Program-made: the position numbers and the translations under genes | In this document: piece by piece, positions 2,171-10,428 of the stretch | Numbering within the stretch: the first letter of the stretch is position 1 | How the letters are laid out: each line of letters opens with the position of its first letter | Notes under the pieces: model-generated | Databases searched by the model: none | Told to the model about the DNA's origin: nothing | What the model saw: the letters and a program-made list of their open reading frames with translations, nothing else | NCBI GenBank assembly: GCA_016195965.1 | Contig: JACPYR010000001.1 | Location: 1-49,255, forward strand | Direction: 5' to 3' | Source of the DNA: Nitrosomonadales bacterium | GTDB lineage: Bacteria; Pseudomonadota; Gammaproteobacteria; Burkholderiales; Gallionellaceae | DNA: 49,255 nucleotides

Positions 2171-4044
2171 TCGTCGGCACCGCAGGACACATCGACCACG
2201 GCAAGACCACTCTGGTGAAGGCGCTCACCGGCGTCGATACCGACCGCCTCAAGGAGGAGCAGGAGCGCGGCATCACGCTCGATCTCGGCTACGCTTATAC
2301 GCCGTTGCGCAACGGAGAGGTGCTGGGATTCATCGACGTGCCGGGGCACGAGAAGCTGGTGCACAACATGCTGGCCGGTGCGACCGGCATCGATTTCGTG
2401 CTGCTGGTGGTCGCCGCCGACGATGGCCCTATGCCGCAGACCCGCGAACATCTTGCGATTCTAAATTTGCTCGGACTGTCGCGAGGCGCAGTGGCTCTGA
2501 CCAAGGTCGATCGTGTGCCGGAAGAACGAGTGGCGCAAGTGCATTCCGAAATCACCTCGCTGTTGATGGGAACCCCGCTCGAAGGCAGCCCGATCTTTCC
2601 GCTCTCAGCGGTGAACGGCGCAGGGGTGGATGCGCTGCGTGGCTATCTCGACGAAGCTGCGCTGGCGATGCCGCCGCACGCCGCGACGGGTAATTTCCGG
2701 CTCGCGGTGGATCGCTGTTTCACCTTGAGCGGCACCGGTACGGTGGTCACCGGCACGGTGTTTTCCGGCACGGTGCAGGTGGGCGATCAACTGTTGCTAT
2801 CCCCTGCCAATATCCAAGTGCGGGTGCGCGGCATACACGCGCAGAATCGCCAGTCCGAAACCGGCATGACGGGTCAGCGCTGTGCGCTCAATCTGGCGGG
2901 GACGGATTTTAGTAAAGATTATGTGCGGCGCGGCGACTGGATACTGGCCGAGCACGCGCACGGACCAACGCAGCGGCTGGATGTACGCTTGCATCTGCTG
3001 GCGGGCGCGGACAAACCGTTGCGTCACTGGTCGCCGCTGCATTTCCATCTCGGCGCAGTCGATGTCATGGCGCGTGTGGTGTTGCTGGAACATGATGTGC
3101 TCGAACCGGGAGCAAGCGGCTTGGCGCAGGTCGTGCTCGACCGGCCTATCGGCGCGCTGCACGGCGACCGCTTCATCATCCGCGATCAGTCCGCCAGCCG
3201 TACCCTGGGCGGGGGCAGAGTGCTCGATCCCTTTCCGCCTGAGCGCAAACGCCGCACAGCAGAAAGATTGGCCTTGCTTGCCGCACTCGAACAGCCTGCG
3301 GCACGCGCGGTTTTGCAGGGAATGTTGGAAGCCACACCCAACGGAATCGATCTGCATCGTTTTACGTTGTGCTGCAATCTCACGCCGGATGAGTTTGCTG
3401 CGCTGCGCCGCGAAGTGATGCTGGCCGAAGTTGAGAGTACCGCTTTTCCGATACAGGCATGGGAAGCTTTGCAACAGGCAGTGCTCGCGCAACTGGCGGA
3501 GGTGCACAGGCTGTCACCTGAAATACTGGGGCCGGATGTGGGCAGATTGCGCCGCCTGGCTGCACCGCGATTATCGCGCGCTGTCTTTGCCAACCTGCTC
3601 GGACGATTGCGGGATGAGGGGCGCATCGCGCAGAAGGGCCCTTGGTGGCACTTGCCTGAACACCGCATCACGCTTTCTTCCAGAGACCAGCTCATCTGGG
3701 ATAAGGTGAAACCGCTGTTGCAGGATCAGCCGTTCCAGCCGCCCAGGGTGCGAGATCTGGCCAACACATTTAAGGTGGAAGAAGATCGCATGCGTAGCTT
3801 GATGCAGCAACTGGCGGCGATGGGCGAGATATACCGCGTGGCGCACGACCATTATTTCATCGCGCCAGCGGTCGAGCAGCTGGCCGAGATAGTCCGCGGA
3901 ATCGCAGCGGAGCACGGCAGTGTAACGGCGGCTTCGTTTCGCGACCGCATCGGCACCGGGCGCAAGCTGGCCATCCAGATACTGGAGTTCTTCGATGCCA
4001 GCGCCGTGACGCGGCGTGCGGGAGATGCGCATTACCTGCGCTGA
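2167..4044 (+). CDS. selB: Selenocysteine-specific translation elongation factor
   Basis: SelB delivers Sec-tRNA(Sec) to UGA codons marked by a SECIS hairpin. The 625-residue protein starts at GTG (2167), four bases inside selA. It has GTPase motifs G1 ([12 protein letters not shown]), G3 (DVPGHE) and G4 (TKVD), EF-Tu-like beta-barrel domains, and a long C-terminal region of winged-helix domains that binds the SECIS. The last 36 codons and the stop lie in a 127-bp segment (3936-4062) that recurs at 11814-11940 beside selC. The gene itself is intact, so the selAB operon should be functional with the selC tRNA 8 kb downstream. Confidence 0.96.
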
Positions 4045-4062
4045 AGAGTTTCGGGTAGTATT
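3936..4062 (+). repeat. 127-bp direct repeat, left copy (selB 3' end plus 18 bp)
   Basis: Bases 3936-4062 match 11814-11940 at 126 of 127 positions; the only difference is G3966 versus A11844. The repeat covers the last codons of selB, its TGA stop and 18 bp of downstream DNA ending GGGTAGTATT. The two copies bracket 7.75 kb of accessory DNA. This is the arrangement left when an element integrates into the 3' end of a gene and restores the reading frame at one junction. Confidence 0.93.
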
Positions 4063-4143: not shown

Positions 4144-4306
4144 GGTCGATTTATATTCAACGTGTCAAACTGAAGCTGTCTGGCTGGAGCCTCGCTCGTT
4201 GCGTGATGACATTGCGACGAGCGGTCAAAGGCAGCCTCGTGGCTGATGCGAAATCCTCGGGTAAAAGCAAACGGCAGCAGAGCTTGTATACCCAAACACC
4301 CGGAAA

Positions 4307-4356
4307 AACGTCACGACCTGTCGTTCGGCATGTTTAAAATGCATTCACTTCGTAAT
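4307..4356 (+). promoter_or_regulatory. Putative WYL operator and promoter of the regulator gene
   Basis: Inverted repeat AACGTCA-CGACC-TGTCGTT (4307-4325), nine bases, then TAAAAT (4335-4340) as a -10-like box, then GCATTCACTTcGTAAT (4341-4356). The same architecture with the same spacing occurs at 7720-7769. The operator overlies the place where a -35 box would be, so binding could block or replace -35 recognition. The leader to the ATG at 4441 is about 100 nt. Confidence 0.6.
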
Positions 4357-4440
4357 AATGGCCGGATCGGAAATGATGTGCATTACAATGCTTGCAGATA
4401 ATTTGATAAATCAAAAACAAAAAATAAGGGACTCACACCA

Positions 4441-5337
4441 ATGAGTGCAGGGGTACATGACACGCTGGTTTATCGTTTGTCGATGATGCTGGTGAAGTTC
4501 AATCAGGGTGAGAAACTCGATCCTCAAGATTTGGCCGATGAGTTTGGGGTAAATGTCCGTACCATTCAGCGCGACCTGAACGAGCGGTTCGCCTATTTGC
4601 CGTTGCAGAGAACCGGCACCAGATACCACCTCGATCCGGCTTTCCTGGGAAAACTGAACACGCGTGACATTGAGCGCTTTGCCAGTCTGGCCGGTGTACG
4701 CGGGCTGTTCCCTTCTCTGTCAGATGAATTCATGCGCGACATCTTCGATTCACGCATTCAATCGGCGCTGCTGGTGAAGGGGCACGATTACGAGAGCTTG
4801 GCAGGTAAGGAGCAGATGTTCCGGCAACTGGAGCAGGCCATCATTGCTCGTCGCCATGTTGCGTTGGATTACAACAAGACTGACGGCATCAAGCATTATG
4901 AACCAATCACTCCCTTCAAGCTGATGAACCACAAGGGTATCTGGTATCTTGCGGCACGCGATAGCGACAAGCTGAAAACTTATTCCTTTGCAAAAATAGA
5001 ATCGCTGCGCTTGCTCGATACCCAATTCGAGCCCGATCCCTCTATCGACAAGACGCTAGCCGAAGAGGACGGAATCTGGATGGGAGAAGAGAAGAAGGAA
5101 ATCGTGCTGAAGGTTGCCCGCGAAGTGGCGGGATATTTCAAACGCCGCAAGCTGATCGCGAACCAGGTGATTGAAAAGGAACTGGAGGATGGCGGCCTTA
5201 TCCTGTCCGCCAAAGTGGGACACATCAATCAGGTGCTGCCGATTGTTCGCTACTGGATACCGCACATACGCATCATTAGCCCGGAGGGGTTGCAGGATGA
5301 GCTGGAGTCCGAAATTCTTGGATATATCCAGTTATAG
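4441..5337 (+). CDS. HTH-WYL family transcriptional regulator
   Basis: A 298-residue regulator. The N-terminal winged HTH (about 8-60) has the segment LADEFGVNVRTIQRDLNE. The WYL domain (about 125-205) contains HVALDYNK, a KGIWYLAARD segment carrying the W-Y-L signature, and the SFAKIESLRLL stretch. A WCX-like C-terminal domain follows (about 220-298), with IRYW-like and SPEGLQDELESEI motifs. Family members sense nucleotide-type or DNA-damage-linked ligands and often control phage-defence operons; that is family knowledge. An inverted repeat in its own promoter has a twin at 7720, suggesting autoregulation plus control of a second operon. The next gene starts 14 bp after its stop, implying co-transcription. 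Confidence 0.9.
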   Translation: MSAGVHDTLVYRLSMMLVKFNQGEKLDPQDLADEFGVNVRTIQRDLNERFAYLPLQRTGTRYHLDPAFLGKLNTRDIERFASLAGVRGLFPSLSDEFMRDIFDSRIQSALLVKGHDYESLAGKEQMFRQLEQAIIARRHVALDYNKTDGIKHYEPITPFKLMNHKGIWYLAARDSDKLKTYSFAKIESLRLLDTQFEPDPSIDKTLAEEDGIWMGEEKKEIVLKVAREVAGYFKRRKLIANQVIEKELEDGGLILSAKVGHINQVLPIVRYWIPHIRIISPEGLQDELESEILGYIQL

Positions 5338-5351
5338 ATTAGGAGGCGTAG

Positions 5352-6467
5352 ATGGAAGACACGAAGAATACAGTAATCAGGTTTCTGGTTGCTTTTGCAA
5401 GTCTGATATTGCTTTATCTGCTTGTGGTGTTTGTAGCTGGTGTTGTTCAACTGGCCGAAGCTGCAGATCGAATTTATCATGGGCTTGGCCAACCAGTCTT
5501 TCTGGGGCTAATGTCACTCTTTGTCGCTTTTGTTGCATCTCCTTTATACATCTATTTCAGATTTCCGCGAGCGCTCGTTCCTCCGACGGAAGCATCTGGC
5601 CCTGAGTTTGACAAATATATGTATCAACTGAGGGCGCAACTAAAGAAAAATCCTAGGCTGGCTGGCGTTCCCCTAGCGAGTGATGAAGACGTTAAATCTG
5701 CTCTAAATAAGCTTTCTAAGGAGGCTGAGGCTGTAATCATAAGTGCAGCGAAAAACGTTTTTATTGGGACGTCCATCTCGCAAAATGGTCGGCTCGATGG
5801 ACTGATCACTCTTGCAACCCAAGGAAAAATGGTTTGGAAAGTAGCTTGTATATATAGCCAGCGGCCATCTCCGAAACAAATGCTATACCTGTATTCAAAT
5901 GTCGCAACAAATGCATTTTTGGCAGAGTCAATTGACGATATCGACTTATCTGAAGTAACTGGTCCGATACTGAGCTCTGTTGGTATAGGCGTGTTGGCTT
6001 CAGTTCCTGGCGCATCTGTAATCATGAACAGTATTGCAAGCGGAGCTTCTAACGCATTTCTCACATTAAGAGTTGGTTGTATAGCCAATCAATATTGTGA
6101 ATCCATTACAAAACCAAATCGTTCTGTCGTAAGACGAATAGCAACGCTAACGGCAGCCTCACTGGTTACAAATATCGTGAAAGAAAATTCTGTTCAGCTT
6201 CTCGCTTCGGTGTGGAATGTAGTTGCTAAAACTTCAGGAAATGCGGTTGATGCTGTAAAGAGTACCGCCGGAAGGGTTGCGGATTCCGTTTCTGAAAGTG
6301 TTAACACCGCCGGAGCGTCAATTAGGACAGCTGTTGATTGCACCAAAGATGCGGCAGGGAAAGTGACTTGTGTGGTTTCGCAAAGGGTTGAGTCTGCTGG
6401 GAGCTCTATCAGCACATTACTTGATAGCGCAAAAATAATGGTTGGTGTCGCTTCTAAAGATAAGTGA
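5352..6467 (+). CDS. DUF697-like membrane protein
   Basis: A 371-residue protein with GGAGG eight bases before the ATG, 14 bp after the WYL regulator. Two N-terminal membrane segments are visible (about 10-33 and 48-71). The middle resembles the DUF697 family, with VGIGVLASVPGASVIMNSI and NAFLTLRVGCIANQYC (about residues 216-260), a stretch typical of membrane-associated DUF697 proteins. The C-terminal 90 residues are a low-complexity amphipathic region (AVDAVKSTAGRVADSVSESV...). Function is unknown; DUF697 proteins are often tied to envelope stress or GTPase partners. Base composition is AT-richer than in the flanking sel genes. Confidence 0.75.
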   Translation: MEDTKNTVIRFLVAFASLILLYLLVVFVAGVVQLAEAADRIYHGLGQPVFLGLMSLFVAFVASPLYIYFRFPRALVPPTEASGPEFDKYMYQLRAQLKKNPRLAGVPLASDEDVKSALNKLSKEAEAVIISAAKNVFIGTSISQNGRLDGLITLATQGKMVWKVACIYSQRPSPKQMLYLYSNVATNAFLAESIDDIDLSEVTGPILSSVGIGVLASVPGASVIMNSIASGASNAFLTLRVGCIANQYCESITKPNRSVVRRIATLTAASLVTNIVKENSVQLLASVWNVVAKTSGNAVDAVKSTAGRVADSVSESVNTAGASIRTAVDCTKDAAGKVTCVVSQRVESAGSSISTLLDSAKIMVGVASKDK

Positions 6468-6669
6468 GCCAATACGGAAATGGTAGTTTGACGAGCACTT
6501 GATGTTACCAAGTGCTACTTAGAGATTGAATTAGTACTGATGATGTTGCATCGACAGGTTGATCCTGCCACCCCCTGTCTCAGGACGATTTTCTTGGTTT
6601 CGAAAATAAAAAATTATCATCAGAATCTAATGTTTTATTCGCGATACTGTTGTTACTACGGAGGTGAAA

Positions 6670-7494
6670 GTGACACACACTACATTCATAAAAATTGTTG
6701 GCTGGTCTCAACTTCTGTTGAGCGCATTGTTGGCGGCTTCAATCATCTGGGTCTATTCAACTTATCAATCATCATTCGGTTACTTGGCTCAGTCGATTTA
6801 TTCAACGGTTCTCACGACATCTGATGTAATTATCCAAATTTCTGACAGCATTAAAAGTCGTGAAAAATTGGCAGATGAGGTTGGTAGCACACTGAACTCA
6901 CTGCGGGATACAGTCTCAGCATTACAGAAGCTGGCAAAATCCCATGGAGAAATCTTGCCTCAGTATGCAAAAAATCTTAATGATGCATCATCTGTATCCT
7001 CAGATCTTTCCTTGAAGATTGGGGAAATGAGCGATGCACTTATGTTTAAAGTGCCAACCAGTGTTTATTGGGATCACATGAAGCCTGTCTTGGTCTGGAC
7101 TGCGCCACTTGGTAGTCAAGCACAAGCTTTTAAGTCTCATGCTCAGCAAATAAAAGGGATGAGCGACAGCCTGAAGGCCACATCAGGATATCTTAGTAAC
7201 GATGCGGCGCAGGTGAATAGTGCATTTATGGCGAGTTGTGATCACGTGATTCGGCTATTGGATGAAACCGCGAGTTCTGTAGTGCGCTTAAAGGATCAAG
7301 ATATACCGGGCGCAGTAGCAAAACTTGAGGCTGCATCCAGTAATTTTAGGGAGATTAGCGGGAAGGTCAATGATGCAGGTAATTTTGCACTAGGTTTGCT
7401 ATGTCTCGGCTTGATTATGGCTACCTTATGTGCGTTCCAGAGTGTTGGAATGATTTTAATGGCGAGGCAGCAATCACAGTTACTCGCTGGGTAG
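6670..7494 (+). CDS. Two-TM membrane protein with a long helical periplasmic region
   Basis: A 274-residue protein of unknown function. I chose the GTG at 6670 because GGAGG at 6660-6664 lies five bases before it; a GTG at 6664 would overlap that site. One membrane helix lies near the N-terminus (about 8-28, LLLSALLAASIIWVY) and another near the C-terminus (about 238-262, FALGLLCLGLIMATL). Between them is a mostly helical, Ser/Asp/Lys-rich region resembling the sensor part of chemoreceptors or kinases, but no HAMP or signalling domain follows. It could be a membrane scaffold or sensor. Codon use is AT-rich like the neighbour upstream. Confidence 0.7.
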   Translation: MTHTTFIKIVGWSQLLLSALLAASIIWVYSTYQSSFGYLAQSIYSTVLTTSDVIIQISDSIKSREKLADEVGSTLNSLRDTVSALQKLAKSHGEILPQYAKNLNDASSVSSDLSLKIGEMSDALMFKVPTSVYWDHMKPVLVWTAPLGSQAQAFKSHAQQIKGMSDSLKATSGYLSNDAAQVNSAFMASCDHVIRLLDETASSVVRLKDQDIPGAVAKLEAASSNFREISGKVNDAGNFALGLLCLGLIMATLCAFQSVGMILMARQQSQLLAG

Positions 7495-7799
7495 GGGTGT
7501 TCATTGCGGATAAGCTGTCGATCACAATTTAATAGATATCTCCAAGCGGCTGGCAGCCAAGATACTGTTTTTAATTATATAAGAAACTGACTTTGTTCTT
7601 ATACCAGTCAGACTGGTACTGCTCTGGCTCACTAGCCATATTCCTGCTCTGATCTTTTAATTTGCAACTGCTCTGGTTGCTATTCCCTGAATATTCCGGC
7701 TTGTCGAAATAATTCATAAAACGACACGCCCTGTCGTTGCCCCCTTCTATGATGCATTCACTTGGTAATTTCTGCCAAGCAACATAGGAGGGTAATCAA
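7495..7799. other. Intergenic region holding the second WYL-type promoter
   Basis: 305 bp with no coding potential that I can support. Apart from the operator and promoter block at 7720-7769 and the ribosome site GGAGGG at 7788-7793, I see only AT-rich sequence with short degenerate CTGGT repeats around 7600-7680. Confidence 0.6.
7720..7769 (+). promoter_or_regulatory. Putative WYL operator and promoter of the second operon
   Basis: A perfect 7-bp inverted repeat, AACGACA-CGCCC-TGTCGTT (7720-7738), nine bases, then TATGAT (7748-7753) as a -10 box, then GCATTCACTTgGTAAT (7754-7769). Operator, spacing and downstream block match those in front of the WYL regulator (4307-4356). This is the strongest evidence in the cassette that the regulator has two targets. 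Confidence 0.65.
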
Positions 7800-7979
7800 A
7801 TGATTTGGATCGCGATGCTGGCAACCTCGTTTGTGTTCATCAAACTCGGGATGCTCTTGGTATTGGTCAAAGTGCTCACACTCGGGGTGATGGGAGCCGC
7901 CCTCGTCATTGCCGGGCTGGTGGGGGCGATTATCTGGCGCAAGGTTTTATCCAAAAATCGAGCAGGCAATGCTCCTTAA
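7800..7979 (+). CDS. Small 59-residue membrane protein
   Basis: An ATG at 7800 with GGAGGG seven bases upstream opens a 59-codon frame. The protein is almost entirely hydrophobic: a first helix (about 2-14), a second spanning about 18-46 and ending VGAIIWRKVL, then a short basic tail. It is the first gene after the second WYL-type promoter. It could be a holin-like, toxin-like or regulatory membrane peptide; nothing in the sequence decides. It is conserved enough in codon bias and signals to be called a gene. Confidence 0.7.
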   Translation: MIWIAMLATSFVFIKLGMLLVLVKVLTLGVMGAALVIAGLVGAIIWRKVLSKNRAGNAP

Positions 7980-8058
7980 CCTGAACGGCTCTCTCAACAT
8001 GCGCGCAAGAGATGGGCAGGTCGAAGCCCATCCTCCTCATCCTCGTCTCCGAAACGGA

Positions 8059-8355
8059 ATGAAAAAATCGGCAACATTTTTGTTACCTGCCCTTGCGTCT
8101 TTTCATGCTGCGTTAGCTGATGAGAGTGTGGCGATCAGAGAAGGAAGTGTTTTTATCACCGTGAGGACTGACGGGCAACGCGACTGGCGAGCAAACCATT
8201 ATCGTGTTGAAAATGGGCAGATCGTGACAATTCGAGCGGATGGCCAGCGTGATTGGAACGCCAATGTGTATCGCATCGAGGGTGGTCAACTCGCCCCTGT
8301 CAGCCCGCAAGGGAAACGCGATTGGAACGCACCGGCAATATCGCTGAAAAAATAA
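8059..8355 (+). CDS. Secreted protein with three DGQRDW-type repeats
   Basis: A 98-residue protein. The likely start is the ATG at 8059, which gives a clean signal peptide (MKKSATFLLPALASFHAALA, cleavage near residue 20). The mature part is three tandem units of about 26 residues, each with D/P-G/Q-x-RDW followed by N-A-N-x-YR-I/V-E-x-GQ: TDGQRDWRANHYRVENGQ, ADGQRDWNANVYRIEGGQ and a final truncated PQGKRDWNAP. The ribosome site is weak. The stop overlaps the next gene's start (TAATG). No function known. Confidence 0.7.
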   Translation: MKKSATFLLPALASFHAALADESVAIREGSVFITVRTDGQRDWRANHYRVENGQIVTIRADGQRDWNANVYRIEGGQLAPVSPQGKRDWNAPAISLKK

Positions 8356-9722
8356 TGATGGATAATTTTATGGGACATATGATGAAAGAAAAATATTACG
8401 GAATTGCACTGGCCTGGTTGGTGACTACATTGTTATTAACTGCATGTGGCGGAGGGGGTGCAAGCACCGGTGCCACAACGCCAGCCAATGCGGCGCCCGT
8501 TGCAAACGCTGGCATCATTCAGAATGTTGTGACGGCGACTTTGGTAACGCTTAATGGCAGCGCCAGCTCCGACGCCAACGGTGATCCGCTGACCTACAGT
8601 TGGACACTGTCCTCTAAACCGGCTGGCAGCGCGGCAACCTTGACGGGCTCAACTTCGGTAGCGCCGACCTTCACGGCGGATGTGGCGGGATCGTATGTTG
8701 TCTCACTGGTGGTGAATGATGGCAAGGTGAACAGCGCGGCTGCCACTGTAACAATCACGGCGACCATCGCCAATGCCGCACCGGTTGCCAATGCTGGCAC
8801 AGCACAGAATGTCGTAACCAATACACTGGTCACCTTGAACGGCAGCGCCAGCTCAGATGCCAACGGTGATCCGCTAACCTATAGTTGGACGCTGACCTCC
8901 AGACCGATCGGCAGCTTGGCAGTCTTGATTGGCGCGACATCGGTAGCGCCGACCTTCACGGCGGATGTGGCGGGATCGTATGTTGCCTCGCTGGTGGTAA
9001 ATGACGGTAAGGTGAACAGTGTTGCTGCAACGGTAACCATTACGGCGACCATTGCCAATGCCGCACCGGTTGCCAATGCGGGTACTGCACAGAATGTCTT
9101 AATCAATACACTGGTCACTTTGAACGGCAGCGCCAGTTCAGATGCCAACGGCGACCCGCTGACCTACAGCTGGACACTGACCTCCAAACCGGTCGGAAGC
9201 TTAGCCGCTTTGACCGGTGCAACCTCGATAGCACCAACCTTCACGGCGGATGTGGCGGGAACCTACGTTGCCTCGCTGGTGGTGAATGACGGCAAGGTGA
9301 ACAGCACGCCAGCCGCAGTCACGATTACGGTTATCAATCCAGGGATTTATCTCAGTGAGAATACGGGGATGTTCAACCCCAACTACACACCAGTGTCGTT
9401 CCCATATGCCTCTTCGGCAATGGTAACCGCGTCATTGTCGGGCATACCCGCGCCGACTACCTACAAGGTTGCCGAGTTCAGCATGACGGCAGTGGGTGGC
9501 AACTATACCGTGCAGAATCTGGCTGCTGTTGATGCCAATGGCTTCGTTGTTCCGTATTTCACCGGGTTGTCTAACGGTCAGACCATCGCAAATGGATCAG
9601 CCGTCATGTTCTCACTTGTTTCTCCGTTAACGGGGGGACGAACTGCAAATATCACATACCGTTTTTCCATACTGGAAACGGGTGGAACATTTAATTACAC
9701 CGTGCAATTGAGAACGAATTAA
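8355..9722 (+). CDS. Lipoprotein with three tandem PKD-like domains
   Basis: The product has a lipoprotein signal (LVTTLLLTACGGGG, lipobox LTAC). Several ATGs compete (8355, 8358, 8370, 8379, 8382); 8379 or 8382 gives the most typical signal peptide length. Three near-identical 95-residue units follow, each opening NAAPVANAG, passing through NGSASSDANGDPLTYSWTL and ending SLVVNDGKVNS, the layout of PKD/REJ-type immunoglobulin-like folds. A unique C-terminal domain of about 125 residues follows. Such proteins are outer-membrane anchored with adhesive or scaffolding roles. A terminator follows at 9771. Confidence 0.82.
   Translation: MMDNFMGHMMKEKYYGIALAWLVTTLLLTACGGGGASTGATTPANAAPVANAGIIQNVVTATLVTLNGSASSDANGDPLTYSWTLSSKPAGSAATLTGSTSVAPTFTADVAGSYVVSLVVNDGKVNSAAATVTITATIANAAPVANAGTAQNVVTNTLVTLNGSASSDANGDPLTYSWTLTSRPIGSLAVLIGATSVAPTFTADVAGSYVASLVVNDGKVNSVAATVTITATIANAAPVANAGTAQNVLINTLVTLNGSASSDANGDPLTYSWTLTSKPVGSLAALTGATSIAPTFTADVAGTYVASLVVNDGKVNSTPAAVTITVINPGIYLSENTGMFNPNYTPVSFPYASSAMVTASLSGIPAPTTYKVAEFSMTAVGGNYTVQNLAAVDANGFVVPYFTGLSNGQTIANGSAVMFSLVSPLTGGRTANITYRFSILETGGTFNYTVQLRTN
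8484..9338 (+). repeat. Three 285-bp tandem repeats inside the PKD-like lipoprotein gene
   Basis: Units start at 8484, 8769 and 9054, each at a GCCAATGC block, with an exact 285-bp period. Long stretches are nearly identical between units, for instance the segment encoding SVAPTFTADVAGSYV. The high DNA-level identity means unit number can change by slippage or recombination. Confidence 0.85.
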
Positions 9723-9912: not shown

Positions 9913-10428
9913 ATGAGTATATTGACAGGAAAGAGGGTAGTGTGCCCCGCGATTTTATTGGCGGTTTTCCTGGTTGCAGCCTGCAATCAGAATGATAATA
10001 TCTCACCAACGACACAAGAGCAGTTAATTGAGGCCATCGATAAAGCCACGGTCAATCCAATCAAGCTCCAGGGCGAGTTGTCGGATATGTTCGCATTCGG
10101 CAGCAAGTATACCGATTTACAGCGCGAAAACATGCTCGGGAATATTGTGGGCAACGTCATTCAATGGGAGCTTCCTGTTTATGAGGTCACCCTCAGCGGG
10201 GATGTTTACAAAGTACAAACCAAAGGAAGTATGCGAGTAGGTGATGTGGGAACAGATTTAATCCCTGCAACCATATACATTACGCCACGTAGCGACAGTG
10301 ATCGCAGGTTGATGGAAACACTGAAGACCGATGACATGATTTCTTTCAAAGGTGTGGTTTCAACGATCATTTTAAGATCGTATATTGTGGTCGAGCCAGC
10401 TATACTCATTAATAATGATAACCACTGA
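9913..10428 (+). CDS. OB-fold (tRNA_anti-like) lipoprotein, function unknown
   Basis: A 171-residue protein from the ATG at 9913 (a TTG at 9910 is less likely). It has a lipoprotein signal peptide ending LVAAC (lipobox cysteine at about residue 25). The mature part resembles the OB-fold 'tRNA_anti-like' family of small secreted proteins: an ENMLGNIVGNVIQWELPVYEV block, a variable loop, then strands DDMISFKGVVSTII. These proteins often occur singly or fused to other membrane modules; the role is unknown. The next gene begins 24 bp after its stop with an AAGGAA ribosome site, so the two are probably co-transcribed. Confidence 0.7.
   Translation: MSILTGKRVVCPAILLAVFLVAACNQNDNISPTTQEQLIEAIDKATVNPIKLQGELSDMFAFGSKYTDLQRENMLGNIVGNVIQWELPVYEVTLSGDVYKVQTKGSMRVGDVGTDLIPATIYITPRSDSDRRLMETLKTDDMISFKGVVSTIILRSYIVVEPAILINNDNH

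Follow-up and report, generated by a model that had tools for sequence, protein, structure and literature searches.

Within the first 49,255 nucleotides (nt) of contig JACPYR010000001.1 of a Nitrosomonadales bacterium (Gallionellaceae; assembly GCA_016195965.1), a stretch we call the window, 127-nt direct repeats enclose a cassette of 7.9 kilobases (kb) between selB and a tRNA-like gene. We studied two promoters of one design inside this cassette, together with the gene of a WYL-family transcription regulator that stands behind the first of them. The second promoter precedes a group of genes at 7800–9722. A first-pass annotation had described twin sites whose positions and spacing are exactly those found in the window letters. 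The elements and genes in question, with lengths in base pairs (bp) and amino acids (aa), are:

4307–4325, + strand: operator 1, AACGTC-N7-GTCGTT, over the −35 position, centre near −31 of promoter 1
4335–4340, + strand: −10 element of promoter 1, TAAAAT, 9 bp downstream of operator 1
4341–4356, + strand: discriminator and start-site region, common to promoters 1 and 2
4441–5337, + strand: WYL–WCX transcription regulator, 298 aa, predicted activator of both promoters (Pfam WYL and WCX; alignment A1; closest folds DriD, then PafBC)
5352–6467, + strand: DUF697 protein, 371 aa, N-terminal hydrophobic helices, 14 bp past the WYL gene, in the variable-cargo position
7720–7738, + strand: operator 2, AACGAC-N7-GTCGTT, with a perfect ACGAC-N7-GTCGT core
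7748–7753, + strand: −10 element of promoter 2, TATGAT
7754–7779, + strand: block after the −10 of promoter 2, continuing into a predicted 5′ hairpin at 7761–7779 (weak, z −1.2 to −1.4)
7800–7979, + strand: 59-aa predicted two-helix membrane protein of a small family, the commonest first gene at a site after the WYL gene

Two promoters of one design

Operator 1 reads AACGTCA-CGACC-TGTCGTT and operator 2 AACGACA-CGCCC-TGTCGTT; in both, nine bases lead to the −10 element, which is followed by GCATTCACTT-N-GTAAT (4341–4356 and 7754–7769). A repeat finder joined these elements into a 52-nt pair (4305–4356 and 7718–7769) that is 77% identical and extends no further. The two promoters differ in the 9 bp that separate operator from −10, although both ends of this spacer are conserved. 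Across the host genome (a 2.73-megabase assembly, 82.9% complete), the full motif had two matches, both in the window, and none in the reversed control; it is not frequent elsewhere. The 19-bp palindrome without mismatches likewise occurred only at the two window sites. With up to two mismatches it did not rise above the reversed control (22 versus 44 matches), so only the exact palindrome is informative, and the relaxed form was rejected for listing targets across the genome. Neither window promoter was picked up when the cassette was scanned for sigma-70 promoters.

One scan of genome contigs yielded 32 further loci with a WYL gene, whose source records name Gallionella and other Betaproteobacteria, Geobacteraceae and other former Deltaproteobacteria, Pseudomonas and Methylococcales, among others; some of the metagenome-bin names look misassigned. 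In these loci plus the window (33 sequences), we sought the core ACGACA-N3-CCTGTC regardless of the letters downstream. The exact core occurred at 38 sites, and the hexamer 9 bp downstream had A as its second and T as its sixth base in all 38. When one mismatch was allowed, NANNNT followed at this distance (N9) in 40 of 45 sites, compared with 0–8 of 45 when any one of 29 other spacings was tried. Five of the seven one-mismatch sites lacked the −10: four are a palindromic site read in reverse and one looks like chance.

For a position-by-position view, 44 sites, hand-picked at an operator score ≥18, were reduced to 30 non-redundant promoters by dropping those at least 75% alike. The reverse reading of the window palindrome (18.8) and all lower scores, such as those of L037 and L035, were left out, and the sites of L080–L082 were added through a pattern that included the −10. 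A−11 and T−7 were present in 30/30 promoters; 28 of these had been picked on the 19-bp operator alone, and two (L081 and L082) came from the pattern that already required A and T. Eight operator positions were invariant (C−38, G−37, C−35, C−30, C−29, T−28, G−27 and C−25). The operator is nearly symmetric; each copy nevertheless points one way, because the CC at −30/−29 is always on the same strand. Downstream of the −10, only G−6 (20/30) and C−1 (21/30) stood out, which does not support the earlier suggestion that the block after the −10 is a second recognition element; across the family this block is not conserved. The longer block is instead a feature of the Gallionellaceae copies and, at promoter 2, continues into a predicted hairpin, CUUGGU..GCCAAG, ahead of the small membrane protein gene, in its 5′ leader. 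This weakly supported hairpin was also predicted in L011, L012 and L030 (four copies folded, z −1.2 to −1.4), with some letters of its pairs varying.

At a 17-bp spacer, 34 of the 45 sites matched none of the six bases of TTGACA. There is no recognisable −35 box, and the operator covers its place, as in DriD, the WYL activator of the DNA-damage response in Caulobacter crescentus. Among 23 further loci, all but two with WYL genes at 24–46% identity, 17 had GACA-N5-TGTC with at most one mismatch in the roughly 500 bp upstream, with varying flanks.

The link between site and WYL gene

The exact core was present in 24 of the 32 loci, namely all 24 in which the WYL protein was 65–91% identical and its N-terminus present. 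The other eight comprise five partial matches and three relatives at 35–36% identity; one of the partial matches, L031 (residues 60–284), had over 5 kb of upstream sequence and no site. Of 158 genomes of the family, 22 had some WYL match, close in five (68–100% identity) with one more at 42%. The pattern of operator plus −10 was found in eight of the 158, including all five with a close orthologue, and in two in the reversed control. Eight of its 12 matches adjoin a close orthologue, three lie near contig ends and one is G067:C9. In a class-wide sample the pattern occurred in 6/369 genomes, which were both of those with an orthologue at E ≤ 1e-60 and four others (reversed control, 3/369). We took the four (G334, G513, G229 and G161) and G067:C9 as chance matches. 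We also considered whether the regulator might be a different WYL protein encoded by the host, whose genome has a second WCX protein (C46), and rejected this: the 16 family genomes with weak WYL matches, that is, the 22 less the five close orthologues and G083, had no pattern (0/16).

The recurrence of the sites beside WYL orthologues is the decisive support for them. It also favours the original proposal that one regulator serves two operons, since the site accompanies the WYL gene across hosts and is rare without it.

The regulator and the competing readings

The 4441–5337 product matched Pfam WYL and WCX and no Pfam helix-turn-helix (HTH) family at E ≤ 0.001. In its AlphaFold model, residues 6–49 fold into three helices and then two short strands. 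The top Foldseek matches of the model were full-length DriD chains (E = 5e-14), ahead of PafBC (2.7e-13), BrxR (1.8e-8) and CapW (2.5e-7). Template modelling (TM) scores over full-length chains were ≤0.5, probably because domain placement is uncertain. By Pfam and the model together, the protein shares the HTH, WYL and WCX make-up of DriD-type activators. Alignment A1 of the family omits L041, which has a stop codon within its range.

The likeness to DriD extends to the DNA. The published account of DriD (PMC12340889) gives the consensus ATACGAC-N7-GTCGTAT, with the site over a poor −35 element and at a single distance from the −10. Its inner core, ACGAC-N7-GTCGT, is matched in 10/10 positions at 7720 and in 9/10 at 4307, as read from the letters. 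Over the 14 positions of the consensus, the window operators score 11 (7720) and 10 (4307), and three DriD promoters 11, 12 and 7. When aligned by their second half-site, the DriD promoters didA, CCNA_03891 and bapE have CAAGGT, CAATCT and CAAGCC at the offset of our −10, with the published conserved G−14 and A−11 in each and T−7 in two. The two systems are thus alike in their WYL–WCX domains, N-terminal DNA-binding region and operator core, and in an operator at a fixed distance from the −10. The DriD target DidA is a small membrane protein (PMC4211646), a parallel with the 59-aa protein by description. The two systems differ in that the targets here are cassette-borne envelope proteins, the distribution is scattered and there is no known damage response.

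Two other WYL activators offer partial parallels. PafBC of mycobacteria, a case of sigma adaptation, shares the WYL–WCX domains, and its promoters, given as tTGTCRgtg-8 nt-TannnT (PMC5656591), place TGTC 16 bp before the start of the −10, as here. PafBC is however a heterodimer that binds a non-palindromic site only together with polymerase, whereas the window has a palindrome beside a single WYL gene of 298 aa. Among the other cassette proteins scanned with Pfam there was no second WYL protein, and hence not the two adjacent subunit genes of a PafBC system. SiwR of Mycobacterium smegmatis is a homodimeric WYL activator with a 19-bp imperfect palindrome that spans −35 to −10; it controls DinB-like genes.

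We consider it likely, on this sequence evidence and the analogy, that the 4441–5337 product is a homodimeric, DriD-like activator of its own gene and of the 7800–9722 group. The homodimer would bind GACA-N5-TGTC (ACGAC-N7-GTCGT) with its centre near −31, over the missing −35 box, and the bound dimer would hold housekeeping RNA polymerase on the −10 exactly 9 bp downstream. Site 1 would drive the regulator and the DUF697 gene, giving positive feedback, and site 2 the 7800–9722 group, whose first gene encodes the conserved small two-helix membrane protein. A nucleic-acid ligand may switch the WYL protein. We infer all four properties of this protein, namely that it binds, dimerises, activates and responds to nucleic acid. 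Activation is preferred because the consensus and geometry match those of DriD and DriD comes first in the structure search, as opposed to the BrxR repeat, which sits downstream of the −10.

Several observations weigh against DriD-like activation. On the DNA side, of 28 core matches with two mismatches only four had a −10 at N9, as did only 8 of the 23 further, mostly distant loci (shuffles, 0.00–0.03 per locus); the spacing rule therefore weakens with distance. The best −35 over spacers of 15–19 bp matched 2–4 of six bases, a little below random expectation. The bapE placement is one of four tied at 7/14, chosen by its likeness to didA, and its hexamer lacks T−7. DriD does not drive its own gene (PMC12340889), whereas a site precedes the WYL gene here. 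On the protein side, overall identity to DriD is about 18%, the HTH is not matched by sequence, and a sequence profile puts PafBC first (1.6e-10), followed by DriD (1.8e-8) and BrxR (4e-4). The AlphaFold model is modest, with a predicted local distance difference test (pLDDT) of 75.7 and a predicted TM-score of 0.45, and residues 90–117 fall below a pLDDT of 50 where the polymerase-contacting three-helix bundle of DriD-type proteins would be expected. The pocket segment is K.FSF.K instead of the R.WRLDR of DriD and PafBC (the profile aligns RSWRLDRM of DriD with KTFSF-KI), so the ligand cannot be assumed and, going by this sequence, sensing of single-stranded DNA may not apply.

The most serious alternative makes the WYL protein a repressor of the BrxR/CapW kind, covering the −35 region of both promoters until a ligand releases it. 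CapW is a repressor, and the model matches the folds of BrxR and CapW too. BrxR (PMC9122601), itself a WYL repressor, has inverted repeats close to the gene that encodes it, and their 5-bp spacer is that of the window operators. The first-pass annotation had drawn this comparison. In the same source the BrxR repeat lies downstream of the −10, where it is thought to block polymerase, whereas the window palindromes lie upstream of it, in the place of the −35 and at an invariant 9 bp; DriD and PafBC also outrank both repressors structurally. A fixed spacing is by itself compatible with a repressor that occludes the −35, and this counts against activation. Such a repressor would however need a working promoter, and no −35 is recognisable here; nor would it have a reason to keep exactly 9 bp to the −10 in 38/38 sites. 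BrxR/CapW-type repression was accordingly rejected as first choice on operator position, and we regard a repressor as unlikely.

A less probable alternative still, to which we give little credence, is that another host factor, such as an alternative sigma factor or a global regulator, reads the element, with the WYL gene as just another of its targets. In principle, the operator and its fixed −10 might together form a bipartite promoter for a sigma factor, and three family genomes with the pattern (G013, G129 and G157; 87, 94 and 100% complete) have no WYL match in their assemblies, which also speaks against a WYL activator. In these three, the site lies 0.2–0.4 kb from a contig end, and our guess is that the assembly is broken at the cassette; the G013 site precedes a small membrane protein gene. 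Moreover, the pattern is found together with the WYL orthologue in hosts that belong to different groups and occurs in only 4/367 class-sample genomes without an orthologue (E ≤ 1e-60), compared with 3/369 in the reversed control, and the palindrome suits a dimer and equals the DriD core consensus. That the two promoters resemble each other only as recent copies, as their 77% identical 52-nt repeat might suggest, is very improbable, given a 9-bp spacer that has diverged between conserved ends and the recurrence of the same elements in 24 other loci, where the sequence that separates them has diverged.

Targets, cassette and distribution

Genes behind the sites were called with a simple open reading frame (ORF) rule and sorted by eye for 39 sites in 25 sequences (38 exact sites and the first site of the window). 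The first gene was the WYL gene at 15 sites, a small two-helix membrane protein at 11, a small lipoprotein-like ORF at six and another gene at six; none was found at one. With loci added later, the small membrane protein stands behind a site in 14 loci, 27–40 nt past the expected start. Members of this family are 53–81 aa long with M1, W3, F13 and L26 invariant, W3 partly by selection because the start pattern used for collecting asked for a W near the start. Found without that pattern were the 11 proteins above and a BLAST cluster of eight in seven loci. The 59-aa window copy had no match in Pfam, NCBIfam or PHROG. Strong matches to it (E < 1e-19) were present in 5 of the 158 family genomes, four with a close WYL orthologue plus G013, and weaker ones (E 5e-5 to 2e-12) in four more, two of them with internal stops; G067 has the WYL gene and no match to the small protein. 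Among the papers listed in a literature search by title and opening of the abstract, with most subscription journals outside its scope, none described this WYL–small membrane protein pair, DriD–DidA apart.

The window DUF697 gene occupies the position of a variable module. Other modules adjoining the WYL gene are a pair of 168- and 328-aa proteins, a zinc-ribbon protein paired with a 392-aa protein, and a CrfC-like dynamin with YjcZ and patatin, the dynamin match being below NCBIfam's own cut-off. The last of these modules, a CrfC-like dynamin with a YjcZ-like protein and a patatin phospholipase, adjoins the WYL gene in L025, L026 and L033, and each of these loci holds two or three sites.

The boundaries and remaining genes of the window cassette are:

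3936–4062, + strand: left copy of the 127-nt direct repeat (3′ end of selB), cassette boundary
6664–7494, + strand: 276-aa protein, two predicted membrane helices near its ends, no Pfam family
8059–8355, + strand: 98-aa predicted secreted protein with DGQRDWNAN-type repeats; relatives in L011, L012, L027, L029, L030 and L034
8370–9722, + strand: PKD-repeat protein, 450 aa, three 285-nt repeats, lipoprotein-like start by eye
9913–10428, + strand: predicted lipoprotein, 171 aa; relatives in L013, L015, L030, L032 and L041
10453–11367, + strand: 304-aa multi-helix membrane protein; relatives in L013 and L041
11814–11940, + strand: right copy of the 127-nt direct repeat, 99% identical, with the tRNA-like gene (read as selC) next

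The window copy of the secreted repeat protein had no NCBIfam or PHROG match; proteins of its type recur across the same cassettes, in the window and the six loci listed with it. PADLOC, run on three cassette proteins, matched only the WYL protein, with generic CRISPR-associated WYL models first, and gave nothing for the other two. Upstream, the cassette is flanked by selA–selB; by position and sequence, the tRNA-like gene beyond the right repeat reads as selC. In the relative G042, the stretch from the end of selB to selC matched in one piece without the cassette (query positions 2–272 in 231 bases, 75%), consistent at sequence level with an empty site. The same query matched 9 of 31 genomes, mostly over the tRNA-like part alone. 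The scanned cassette ORFs had no match to recombinase families. The cassette looks like mobile DNA.

With a close match in only 5/158 family genomes, the WYL gene is sparse and scattered, as would be expected of horizontal transfer. On the IMG/VR contig L084 (491–6150), a WYL gene is accompanied by a divergent small membrane protein and a zinc-ribbon/409-aa module; the adjoining ORF at 4684–6150 reads like a large serine recombinase (named by eye), and the WYL module is apparently prophage cargo. On the Escherichia coli plasmid CP057032.1 (L134), a 27% identical WYL gene is followed by annotated chemotaxis protein and cobalamin adenosyltransferase genes.

The best reading of the locus is a horizontally scattered, positively autoregulated WYL activator with a small regulon of its own. 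More speculatively, and rather less likely to be right than wrong, it could be a portable, self-amplifying switch: an island- and phage-borne activator that, on sensing a nucleic-acid signal, switches on a conserved two-helix inner-membrane protein together with interchangeable membrane-acting modules (the DUF697 pair, glycine-rich membrane proteins, or the CrfC-like dynamin with YjcZ and patatin). Such a switch might act as an SOS-independent, DidA-like checkpoint or in abortive defence, moving between phyla with its own promoters.

By way of DNA geometry, the finding connects a scattered and so far uncharacterised WYL family with an activation mechanism that has been solved experimentally, and it supplies an exact search rule for targets (ACGACA-N3-CCTGTC, 13 bases, then ANNNT). 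It also singles out a tiny membrane protein, the most frequent target besides the regulator itself, as an experimental handle. It would extend DriD-style activation from one damage response in Caulobacter to cassettes across Beta-, Gamma- and former Deltaproteobacteria.

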